From assembly GCA_026745465.1 (NCBI GenBank), contig JACYXH010000314.1:762501-826500 (forward strand): a stretch of 64,000 nt of DNA. Direction: 5' to 3'. This DNA is from Lota lota. Its lineage: Eukaryota > Chordata > Actinopteri > Gadiformes > Lotidae. Of the stretch, positions 43,973 through 49,900 are shown piece after piece. How positions within the stretch are numbered: the first letter of the stretch is position 1; the number at the start of each line of letters is the position of its first letter. The position numbers were made by a program, and so were the translations under genes. The notes below the pieces were generated by a model, which saw only the letters and a list, made by a program, of their open reading frames with translations, ran no database searches and was not told the origin of the DNA.

Positions 43973-46900
43973 ATGGCTGCTCTTTCAGCCTGGTTTTGGA
44001 ACGAACGGTTTTGGCTACCACACAATGTAACCTGGGCGGACCTCGCAGACCCGGCTCCCGGGGTGGAGTATCCAAAACCCAGACACTTGCTGTCTGCCCT
44101 ACCCCTGGCTTTGTTGATATTGGTCGTGAGAATACTCTTCGAGAGGTTTGTATACAACAACAATATAGTTCCCCACACTACATATTCTTATAGTAACTGT
44201 CACGATCTGTTAAGATATGGGGATTTCGTTCGCAGTCAACATCACTGTGTGCTGATGTGTTGCTAATGTTAGCCCGATGCCTACGATCTCCCTTCGGTCT
44301 CATCCATACAGCGAGAGAGATGGATGTCTGTTAAATGGCGCTGAACTATCGTGAGACATGACGGTGGAGGCAAACTGTTGTATTGCTCAAAGATCAGAAC
44401 GTTTGCTTTGCACAAAGTTTAGACTCTGCACATTGTGTTTCTTGGATGCCCGTTCAATTGCAAAGTAGAGCACACACACACACACACACACACACACACA
44501 CACACACACACACACACACACACACACACACACACACACACACACACACACACACACACACACACACACACACACACACACACACACACACAGTGTAGGA
44601 GCTAGCCTGGCTGCAGTTTAACTTGAGCTATATGTACATGTTCTTGTTTAGGAGAACTTACTGTACTCCAATACTCATTTCCTTTATTCCAAAGTTATAA
44701 CAATTGGTTCATAACTGGTGGAATTTTTTTCTTTTTTTTTTTACCGAAACACACTTTTCATAGTAAACAAATCGCACTACAGAAACCATGTGGAGCCACA
44801 CTGTACTACGCATGGCTCAGGTGTGTCCTAGGACGCCTGCCAGATTCAGCACCCGTTGGGTAGGCCTAGACCTGGAGGTTGGTTCACCGTGTGAAATGCC
44901 CTGTGTTCTGTTCAAAGAACTCGATGAAATAAGAAAACTACGAAGCTGTCTAGCGCCGATAGCGTTTGGGAAGTGCATTGAGGCTTTGTGCTCAAAATTA
45001 AATTAGTAAGCTTTAGCCGTTGAGAACTTCAAAACCATTCACTAAGAATTATTCATGTGGTCACGTTTATACACAGACACACACAGACACACAGACAGAC
45101 ACACAGACAGACACACACACACACACACACACACACACACACACACACACACACACACACACACACACACACCTTGCTTGATTGACAAGCCTTAATAGCT
45201 GCACTTGATGACATGTCTACAATTGTCATCACATCCTTATATTTGCTTAAGTTTAGTAATTTCATTGCAAGTCTGCTGCATAGGCATTTATATACTCAAA
45301 ATTGGATTTACCTAATACATTTGAAAGTACCAACATTAGAAGTATAATGAAAGTAGTAGGAAAAACGGTCTATGCGGTTTTAACAGTACTTCTGTGTTTG
45401 TGAATAGCCTCGCAAGAGCAATTCTTATCGTGGTATCAAAAACGATTCCTAACTATGTGCATGGCAGGCAAATACTTGTTTATTTATTTAATGAAAGCAG
45501 TGAATGGGATCCAACAAGTCAGAGCTCACATTACGATCTTCCCTATCCATATCTTTCATCACAAGTAGAGCTTGTAAATGATGTCCACTGTAACTTTTGC
45601 CTCCTCAAATGGCCATGGGAAATGAATACTCCCCTAAACCCACTGGGAAAATAGAAAAAGGGAAAAGATTGCCTAAGAAGGGACCCTACTTTAGGAGTCC
45701 GATTGTCCGCAGAGCAGGTAGTCCATTCAAATGTACTATCAACTAGCCCTGTGTGTAGTTGTTACACATCAGAGAGTGAGAAAACACGACTGCGTTTATT
45801 AAGCCATTGCATCTGGACCCGGGGAAATGGGTGTGGTGAAGGACAAGGTTTTGAGTGGCTGTGGCCATGTCTCGGGTGCCGGGGCTTTCTGCCATTGCCA
45901 AGACACCGGTGAGGTAGATGTAGGGCGAGGGGCCTGGAGCCGATGTTATCAGAACCCATTTACTGCTACTGGGTGTTGTGCGGGCCAGATCACTGGCTCA
46001 TTCATTCATTCATAAGAGGAAAGAAATAACAGCCCAGCTTGGAAAGCCTAGAGTGTTGAACGAGATACATGCATACTAGGGTGCCAATATTTTATGTAGC
46101 AAAAAATAAACTGTTACATTTCTAAGGTCTTAACCCTCAATTCTGTTCCTTATGTATCAACTAAGTGACAGAAAAAAATACTAAAAAATATTTATGTTTA
46201 GAGGTTGCTCACAGTCATCAAATGTTTCTTCAAAATGCGTAGTATCTGCTTTTGAAGATTTGGTAGTTGGATTGCTATAAATAAAGATTTTAGCTATACT
46301 TAACTCTTATTGAAACTTTTCAATAACAGTTGTATATGTTAAAGACTCTGTTAAAAAATATATGTTAGTATCAATAGATTCAATTCTTATCAATAATTTC
46401 ATTCCAAGATTACTAACTTCTGGTTCCTGTTTAATCAGTTCCTGCCATTTTACAAATACCATGCTGAAAATTGAGATTATTTAAATAGTTCAGATAGTTA
46501 AGACACTGTGGTAAGGGGGGCGTGGCTTAGCGCCGGCTGCAGATAGAAGGGGTGGAGCGGCTCAATTGGGGTCACAGACGCAGCTGTAGGGGGTGAGCGC
46601 AATTAGGTAGTTATTAAAAAGACTGACATGTGTTGTGCTCTCCCCACAGTAAGGTCGGGTCCAACCACGCAACTGGAGGTGGTTTGTCACGTTGTGCCGG
46701 CTGGAAGTCGGGAGAGTTATGAAAGTAAAGTACGCGTCCGAGAGGGACAAGAGAGCGTTGGTTTTTGTTGGGGAGAAAATAAAGGACATTTATTTCGTTC
46801 ACCTTCTGGTGTGGTTTTTGTTTACCCTGGCGTGTAGCCAGTGCTACAGTAGTGCCTGAACAGGGACCACTGTAGCGTTAAACAAAAATCAACGCTCTCT

Positions 46901-49900
46901 TGTCCCTCTCGGACGCGTACTTTACTTTCATAACTATCCCGACTTCCAGCCGGCACAACGTGACAAACCACCTCCAGTTGCGTGGTTGGACCCGACCTCA
47001 CTGTGGGGAGAGCACAACACATGTCAGTCTTTTTAATAACTACCTAATTGCGCTCACCCCCTACAGCTGCGTCTGTGACCCCAATTGAGCCGCTCCACCC
47101 CTTCTATCTGCAGCCGGCGCTAAGCCACGCCCCCCTTACCACAGACACTTTATACAGATTATCATGGATTGCAAAATAAATAGAACTGTATGGTTAGTTG
47201 AAAGCACATATGACTCAATAACTGCCTCTAAGTTGCCTTCATATCGGCAAGTATTTGGGAGGCTTCTTCATTTACACTGAATTCAGAATCATTCCATTCA
47301 GCAAAGTGCGAAAGTCACAACAAAATAACTACAGTCAGTGGATGAGGTTCAAGCCTTCATTTATGGCCAGCTAACACAATTTCAGCCTAGGGATGGCTAC
47401 AAAGAGCTTTTGCAGCTCGCATTGATCTTTCTTGGAGTTGAAACCCCTGTCAGCATGAGTATTCAGTCACCAGGAGCCTATCATAGGGCAAGATGGATGG
47501 CAAAGCTCCTCTACTGTCTGAAAATGTATCTTTTTCGTGATTAGTTCTTTGACAACAAGAGAGCTCAATGAACTGCGAGACTTCAACATCTTTGTAGTCA
47601 GGCTTTATATTAGTGCATGGTTTACATGTCCATCAGCCGCTAGCGCACCTCTCAATGATCTTCAACTGTATAAGAGCATTCTCAGCTATCCACACCTTAG
47701 CAAGAAATTCTTTACAGATGCTGCTGCTGTTTTAGGGCGTCATCTGTGGTATCTGAGCGAAGAACTGGAGGGGTTGGCTTTTTTTGACACTAGAGTAAGC
47801 AATGCTGAGAAAACTGATATGGTGACTGCTTTAGAACATACAGCCATGCCTGCCACCCTATCGCATTGATCCTTCTGGAGTTGAATGTAAGAAGCTGTCC
47901 GACTTCATGACCAGAAGAACGAAATACATTTTCGTACGCCTTAGCTTGCATGATGGCTTCTTGACGAAAGATCCAGCTGATTGGGAACACGAGCTTGATT
48001 TGACCAGATCTACAAGGAGGACAGCTGCACTCAAGGTCATGAACGATGCAGCTGAGCGGGGCGTGGCTTTGATACAGTCATTTAACGCTGTTCTTACAAA
48101 CCAAGAAGACCAGAAGCAGTTTTTACTCCAGGTGGTTGAGCGACACAGGCAGCTATATCCTGATTCAAAGAAGTCAACAGTTGTGAAGCATTTACAATGA
48201 ACATTAAACACGGTCTTGTGTTTAAACACTTAAGGCCTTTTGCTACTATAATATGATGATATGTTCATTGTTCAAGCATCGTATTATGTTGATTAAAATG
48301 TGTTTATGTTTTCCATGTGTTATAGCTACTCACAAAGTACACCTAGTTAAGAAACAAGAAATTCTCAACCTAGAAAGCCCGCAACAGAACAGTCCATGTT
48401 CAAAAGTTTTTCAATGAAAATGTCACCCGATACAAAGATGTCGAGTTCCATCAGCAACCCCTAAACATTGTTTAATAGTCATGAAATGTTGTACCAACAT
48501 AAAAAGAAAAAAGCTTGGGGGTTGAGACTTTGACACTTAAAAAAAAAGAATTTGTTGGCACCCTAATGCATACGTTGCACATGATGTCTCTTACTCTGTC
48601 ACACACACTAAAACACACACTGGCACCATTCATCATCATCAATACCCTGTGGTTACACCATGACCACGTGCACTCACACGTATCCATGAGCAATGGGTAG
48701 CAAAAATGTGCTAACTATAGCTGTATCATGGTCTAAATATCATGAGTACAAAATAATTGTAATCCTCCATGATGTTAACTTTGTTGTATTAAACTCCATG
48801 TATATGGAATCAGTAAGCGATTAGAAAAACAAATTTGACAAGTGGTGAATCATGATTGTTTTTAATGATTCCACTTAGCCAATGCTCTTCTCATTTATAT
48901 ATCCAGGCCATTTTTATAATGACTCCTTTCTTTTAACCAATGGCATTAGGCCTTCTTGTGCAATCATATTCCTGGCCCGTGGCAATGAGTTTGTTGAAGA
49001 ACAGACTACTTTCTCCGCTCAGGCCCCCAAGCCTCTCCAAGCCGTGTCATGGGTTGAACGGTGTTAGAACTACAAACAATGATGTGTACAGGATAACACT
49101 AAGCTGGCTTTATGAGCTTCTGTTGCTAGTGGTTCCTTTTGGCCTTGATTACCGAGCACATGGTCCAATGTTTGGCATTGCAAGCACCCGACCTGGAAGC
49201 CTTTGTCTGTTGATGGTATGTCGCTCGAGGGCGATAAATACGAATGAAGAGTAATCTTTAATTCAGACTCTCATGAATGTGCGTTAACAAAATACATTCA
49301 CAACCACTGCTTGATTCTCCTTTCTGTTGGGGACGTATCAACATACTTTTTTTGGGAGTTGAAGCTGAGGCTAGCATCGAGTTGTTTCAGCTGAAAGATG
49401 AGATTAGTATCTCTAGGATCCGGACATTTTTATCTGTTTTCAATCGAGAACTGGATAGTGCAGGTACATGTAAGCCTAAGCAAATGCTGGGAGATTCACA
49501 GCAATGAGATAAAAAGAACAGGAAATGTGAGAAAGTTTTCATATGGTGTAAACCACAGACAAATGTTTAAAGTGTGATCCCTCATAATTCGATTCAGTGG
49601 CTCATATTGTGGCTCTGCAGCCAGTGGAATATTCCCACTAGTAGAAAAAAGGTGTTGTACTTCACACAACAGACAAGGAGACACTCTGTGTGACTATTCC
49701 AGCTTTTGTTGCCCTTTATAGAACCTGCCATTTCCATTGTTTTATAACTAGTCAACAGTTGACCAGCTGGATCTGTGAATTCATTCTTAATCTAATTCCT
49801 GGATCTCAGTGGGTTCACAATTATATTTGTCATTTAGAAAATAATCTCTAGTCCTGCAGTTCTCTTCTTACATATTGGAGTTTTTCCCTGTAACATCCTA

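Follow-up and report, generated by a model that had tools for sequence, protein, structure and literature searches.

Inverted long terminal repeats (LTRs) that arise through aberrant strand switching during reverse transcription are familiar from retroviruses, where palindromic and hairpin strong-stop products occur as unintegrated DNA, and inverted terminal repeats are also a feature of DIRS-like retroelements. Analysis of a 64,000-nucleotide stretch of Lota lota DNA (GenBank assembly GCA_026745465.1, contig JACYXH010000314.1, positions 762,501 to 826,500 of the forward strand; the window) revealed a 637-bp palindrome at 46507-47143 in which an LTR is followed by a primer-binding site (PBS) and then by an inverted LTR. 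The palindrome has LTR sequence, PBS, 5-bp target duplication and integrase-type insertion in common with solo and full-length Gmr1-like Ty3/Gypsy elements, but its LTRs are inverted, with only the PBS between them and neither a polypurine tract nor genes. Unlike the retroviral products, palindromes of this kind are integrated in the genome, recur with a fixed joint, and also form between two LTR families; their 5-bp target duplication and Ty3/Gypsy integrase family set them apart from DIRS-like elements. One of the two families, LTR B, resembles a terminal-repeat retrotransposon in miniature (TRIM), whereas the composites stand head to head and lack an internal region. A non-exhaustive literature search found no account of an integrated LTR-PBS-inverted LTR class; head-to-head DNA transposons are the subject of PMC12312487.

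Structure and unit integration of the palindrome

The two LTR arms and the PBS are the entire content of the insert. Both outer ends, reading inward, are TGTGGTAAGG, and the arms (46507-46769 and 46881-47143) match as inverted copies with three mismatches in 263 nt (98.9%), which bears out the sequence-only reading of this locus as an inverted LTR-PBS-LTR palindrome with the unique 3′ (U3) starts outside. After the left LTR the PBS reads TAGTGCCTGAACAGGGACC, differing by one base from its relatives (TGG to TAG), and the joint sequence is CACTGTAGC. The inverted arm (46869-47143) measures 275 nt against 343 in the left LTR: approximately 70 nt of the repeat (R) and unique 5′ (U5) regions are missing near its inner end, including the poly(A) signal, while the inner 12 nt are kept. 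An Rfam search returned no match. The features of the locus, with the evidence for each, are:

46502-46506, no strand: left target-site duplication GACAC (flank comparison and empty sites)
46507-46849, plus strand: complete U3-R-U5 LTR, TGTGGTAAGG...GCTACA/G (arm and family alignment; the end is 46848 in solo relatives)
46778-46783, plus strand: AATAAA poly(A) signal of the left LTR, without counterpart in the inverted arm (sequence)
46850-46868, plus strand: PBS, 18 nt complementary to the tRNA-Lys(TTT) 3′ end with CCA in relatives (here TAG), plus C19 (tRNA match)
46866-46876, no strand: joint ACC/ACTGTAGC, in which ACC can be assigned to either side and the inverted arm reads back GCTACAGTGGT (sequence and joint searches)
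46869-47143, minus strand: inverted LTR of 275 nt, of which 263 nt match the left arm, with R/U5 mostly deleted (arm alignment)
47144-47148, no strand: right target-site duplication GACAC (flank comparison and empty sites)
46101-47700, plus strand: host repeat interrupted by the palindrome, extent as tested (genome matches to its right part)

GACAC flanks the palindrome on both sides, and the flanks differ when compared at 3, 4, 6, 7, or 8 bp. The right flank belongs to a host repeat with 17 matches in the animal's own genome (575 Mb), the only genome searched; that count includes the window's own copy. We fetched 13 of the 16 other copies, leaving out three that start further right in the query, and in all 13 both flanks run continuously across the site, with no insertion and a single target 5-mer (nine GACAC, two AACAC, one AATAC, one AACTC); at one of them (L105) the continuous alignment of the left flank is limited to its last 42 nt. 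The empty sites are paralogous, not orthologous. The GACAC duplication claimed from the sequence is thus real, and because it coincides with 13 of 13 paralogous empty sites holding a single target, the palindrome was integrated as one unit, as had also been proposed. A target duplication of fixed length at TG...CA type ends is what an integrase makes, and the inverted pair with only a PBS between its members differs from an ordinary LTR insertion, which has direct LTRs or one LTR.

Several other readings were rejected. An assembly fold-back artefact is ruled out by the non-inverted flanks, the duplication, and the empty sites, and inversion after integration by the paralogous empty sites. The locus does not qualify as a foldback element or miniature inverted-repeat DNA transposon, its LTR relatives carrying a PBS and pol, nor as a DIRS-like element, defined by inverted termini without a target duplication. 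The suggestion that the palindrome is self-mobilising is not supported: the insert holds only two arms and a PBS, and, L086 and L089 apart, arm comparisons reveal no single propagating lineage. A transcript from the left LTR should lack the PBS, since the LTR's own poly(A) signal lies upstream of it.

A recurrent joint within and between LTR families

A genome-wide search for relatives and head-to-head copies, called for by the sequence-only reading, was productive. Each DNA query scores 40 candidates, and the window LTR gave 41 matches among the best 40 of 492 candidates, the closest being 93% identical over 342 nt and 94% over 283 nt. With the palindrome centre as query, other loci matched past the PBS (L058-L062, which correspond to L078, L079, L083, L087, and L084). 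The exact joint occurs 12 times in the genome, against 0 for a reversed-pattern control, and at 15 places with two mismatches allowed. A free-gap search, in which two LTR ends could stand 0-30 nt apart, yielded 24 + 20 matches (control, 2 + 1) and added the palindrome L094. Eleven of its loci carry a PBS: nine have the same 33-bp centre (apart from the nucleotide adjoining each LTR end and the single substitution in the window), one is a base shorter, and one is not a palindrome; the remaining rows have no PBS. For the most part, the 102 + 117 matches of a degenerate joint pattern (control, 0) were ordinary LTR-PBS boundaries in reverse reading.

In total, 16 loci carry the palindrome joint: the window (also L080), L078, L079, L081-L089, and L091-L094. 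At 15 loci the joint coincides with the end of the tRNA-matching PBS, at the remaining one it is a base shorter, and ACCA is present at all 16. A joint that is fixed and recurrent points to a repeatable copying accident. L095, an apparent further joint, proved to be a truncated LTR and broken PBS adjoining unrelated DNA. At L090 (72-723), head-to-head LTR B copies lack a PBS, and the inverted one begins inside the other at TGTAGC, its processed end; the arrangement looks like self-integration, and this B-B′ pair is not counted among the 16.

Ten of these loci showed both outer U3 ends, and target duplications, compared as the sequence-only reading had suggested, are perfect over 5 bp at eight of the 10 (window, GACAC; L078, CAAGC; L079, AAGCC; L082, ACATG; L087, GTGAC; L088, CACGG; L089, CAAGC; L094, GTTCT). 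At L085 the duplication matches at four of five bases, and an extra pair with non-LTR ends that surfaced there in the duplication search was taken as chance. A single self-propagating palindrome family was rejected, as arms within a locus are closer than arms between loci at the window, L079, L085, and L088, with L086 and L089 as the exception.

Five of the 16 loci pair two LTR families, A (that of the window) and B. LTR B is joined to inverted A at L082, L086, L089, and L091, and A to inverted B at L087; L093 joins B to B. At L086 only 51 nt of B stand beside the PBS. The B arms of L082, L086, L087, and L089 have no A-arm match at E 1e-6. Because these five loci pair different LTR families, two molecules must have been joined at each of them, and the partners need not be the same element. 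Perfect duplications flank three of the five. LTR B is a different, larger family, found with and without a PBS (2618 candidates, best 40 scored), and its two direct LTR pairs, 1.05 and 1.29 kb end to end, give it a TRIM-like appearance. In L082 (joint at 1501 in the orientation used), more than 300 bases of CT repeat lie within the inverted arm, at approximately 1625-1955.

Same-family and mixed palindromes differ in the state of their arms. At least one arm is shortened in all 10 same-family palindromes (window, L078, L079, L083, L084, L085, L088, L092, L093, and L094) but in only one of five mixed ones (L086; Fisher p 0.0037, post hoc). Length and ends were the criteria for a full arm, and L081, which has lost its left arm, did not enter the test; at L083 the inverted arm is only about 20 nt long. 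The shortening fits the instability of long palindromes, although loss at formation is also possible.

Parent family and tRNA primer

LTR A belongs to a Gmr1-like Ty3/Gypsy family: a SCAN-type Gag and an integrase C-terminal domain upstream of the reverse transcriptase, the Gmr1 arrangement, occur in pieces of two PBS-bearing elements. In the first, one open reading frame (L047) encodes Integrase_p58_C, above cut-off, followed by RVT_1, and lies in an element whose 5′ LTR (L011) is 88% identical to the window LTR; the preceding reading frame has an rve core-domain match at E 5e-4, below the Pfam cut-off. In the second, a SCAN match (PF02023, E 5.6e-13; L046) sits beside an LTR of 79% identity (L033). 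PMC8220671 describes the integrase-before-reverse transcriptase order in Gmr1-like elements, and PMC3424704 an origin of SCAN in Gmr1-like Gag.

The fetched regions held 39 LTR hits, of which seven bear a PBS and were set aside. Among the 32 without one, 13 have perfect 5-bp duplications (control, 0), two members of the tested set (L021 and L027) having one flank type in common. PBS-bearing copies typically read GCTACAG-TGGTGCCTGAACAGGGACC, with some base changes, before the sequence becomes variable. A tRNA-Lys(TTT) gene, called by ARAGORN with the bacterial code, ends in TTCAAGTCCCTGTTCAGGCA and, once CCA is appended, matches the PBS over 18 nt. At PBS nt 19 the elements have C where the tRNA gene predicts T; we take this mismatch to be the A58 position in standard numbering, the expected stop of plus-strand strong-stop DNA. 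C19 follows the 18-nt PBS in the copies examined (e.g., L011, L033, and L069), which were picked via matches that include it, and later bases vary. All 24 exact matches of the tRNA-Lys 3′ pattern lie on one contig (G000 C637:841581-927109), where the locus read (L096) alternates tRNA-Ala with tRNA-Lys.

Other rearranged copies turned up in the same family. L068 and L077 are internally deleted elements in which the late reverse transcriptase/RNase H region of pol directly follows LTR-PBS, with an identical joint in both. At L018 (1001-1965), a 5′ LTR-PBS is fused at GGACC to the RNase H end of pol, followed by the 3′ part of an LTR. GTACT flanks the whole, which looks like a mis-placed second strand transfer, or a mis-annealing of the LTR-PBS 3′ end, that was integrated. 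L068 holds an uninterrupted version of the pol sequence at this fusion, and a Blast comparison of the L018 RNase H piece with L049 gave no match. Elsewhere in the window, at approximately 33299-33470, an exon encoding a SWIB domain, presumably SMARCD-like, adjoins a long GA repeat (33482-33749).

Formation of the palindromes and alternatives

Plus-strand strong-stop DNA ends with a copied tRNA segment, and the palindromes are probably by-products of reverse transcription in which two such DNAs annealed through their PBS tails, each copied the other, and the dimer was integrated. Each strong-stop DNA (U3-R-U5 and an 18-nt copy made from the tRNA-Lys primer) would expose a single-stranded PBS tail after tRNA removal, and two tails, from the same or different elements, would pair together instead of with the minus strand, as they could because the PBS is nearly its own reverse complement. 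Each 3′ end would then be extended along U5, R, and U3 of its partner as far as the 5′ end, giving LTR-PBS-LTR′. Such copying would leave a correct U3 terminus at each end, which would explain why the element's integrase accepted the dimer and inserted it with a 5-bp duplication; same-family palindromes would tend afterwards to lose part of one arm.

The joint lies where a strong-stop dimer should have it, at the end of the tRNA-matching PBS; all search patterns save the free-gap search were built on that joint. Extension of the annealed tails would add C, A, and then the U5 complement, which is the observed joint. PBS nt 2-19 self-pair at 14 of 18 positions, a score reached by 518 of 200,000 shuffles, and nt 3-18 at 12 of 16; the self-pairing energy is -16.5 kcal/mol, compared with -8.8 ± 2.9 for shuffled sequences (30 of 2000 as low).

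Several observations weigh against the dimer model or narrow it. The 18-nt tail alone pairs at -13.1 kcal/mol, only moderately unusual (189 of 5000 shuffles as low), and pairing with the normal partner is much stronger (-26.6 kcal/mol). C19 also occurs in ordinary family members and is by itself no proof of an annealing step. Fifteen of the 16 loci fit patterns built on the joint, by which other joints are under-counted; the free-gap search alone leaves the spacing free, and it needs intact LTR ends. One outer end is missing at L083, L084, L092, and L093, and L081 has the PBS and inverted LTR without a left LTR arm. By eye, the L091 duplication matches at three of five bases, and CATAC flanks both ends of L086 (1400-1833), whose left outer terminus is of U5 type. 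Parts of the arms are nearly identical between L086 and L089 (99.4% over 169 nt, 100% over 51 nt), and the two loci may have a common history rather than being independent. No mosaic PBS/PBS′ centre, a possible trace of mismatch repair in a dimer, was found among approximately 100 of 219 matches listed. Finally, at LTR sites 208, 255, and 336 the right arm agrees with another LTR (L016) and not with the left arm, so that the two arms of the window palindrome may derive from separate templates or have changed later.

The sequence-only reading had offered a self-primed or a strand-switched strong-stop cDNA. Strand switching fits the joint at the tRNA-matching PBS end; self-priming alone is not enough, since the five mixed loci need two molecules. 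Self-priming would have a single strong-stop DNA fold back, with GGGACC pairing GGTGCC around a short loop, prime on itself, and copy its own LTR before the hairpin is opened and integrated. The tail hairpin can form, at about -4.3 kcal/mol, and same-family arms are close within a locus (98.9% in the window, 99.3% in L079), but arms come from two families at five of 16 loci, and a closed hairpin should have a single U3 duplex end, yet eight loci show U3 termini at both ends with a duplication. We consider fold-back unlikely as the general explanation; it is possible for some same-family loci and does not exclude dimerisation elsewhere.

Two further routes are slightly less probable still. Strong-stop DNA might replace the tRNA and prime minus-strand synthesis at the PBS of another element's genomic RNA, with the far U3 end made by polypurine priming. 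This would yield an identical joint, and the U5-to-R/U3 jumps in the inverted arms of the window, L078, and L079 would fit imperfect first-strand transfer; however, left arms are also deleted (L088 and L094) and four of five mixed pairs have no deletions, a pattern more like palindrome loss than transfer error. We give no better prospects to end joining, whether by ligation of a plus-strand 3′ end to another strong-stop's minus-strand 5′ end after tRNA removal or through ACC microhomology (3 nt). ACC is common to both sides of the joint, but with tRNA cleavage at the expected position simple ligation would give no extra C, yet ACCA stands at all 16 loci, and end joining should scatter joints, of which the free-gap search showed no sign. 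Rearrangement after integration, or two separate insertions, is extremely improbable and, to the extent that paralogous empty sites permit, refuted for the window: inverted repeats do rearrange, and one arm is shortened, but the outer ends are two U3 starts beside one duplicated 5-mer, the target is single in all 13 fetched empty sites, and seven other loci have perfect duplications.

With dimerisation of PBS tails as the preferred route, we put forward a broader and more tentative proposal, somewhat less likely to be right than wrong: any elements sharing a tRNA-Lys(UUU)-type PBS would have tail-to-tail dimerisation as a second, regular pathway, and the dimers, including autonomous/TRIM-like mixes, would be accepted by integrase and accumulate as head-to-head loci that document which RNAs were together in a particle and are a possible source of LTR double-stranded RNA. 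On the dimer model itself, a defined error of second-strand transfer has been integrated and retained many times instead of being lost as dead-end DNA. Because the joint is fixed, the pathway can be tested with short oligonucleotides. The instability of palindromes may have left a natural record in the arm loss of same-family copies, from which most mixed copies have been spared, and the mixed pairs are fossil evidence that an autonomous and an apparently non-autonomous element were reverse transcribed in the same place.

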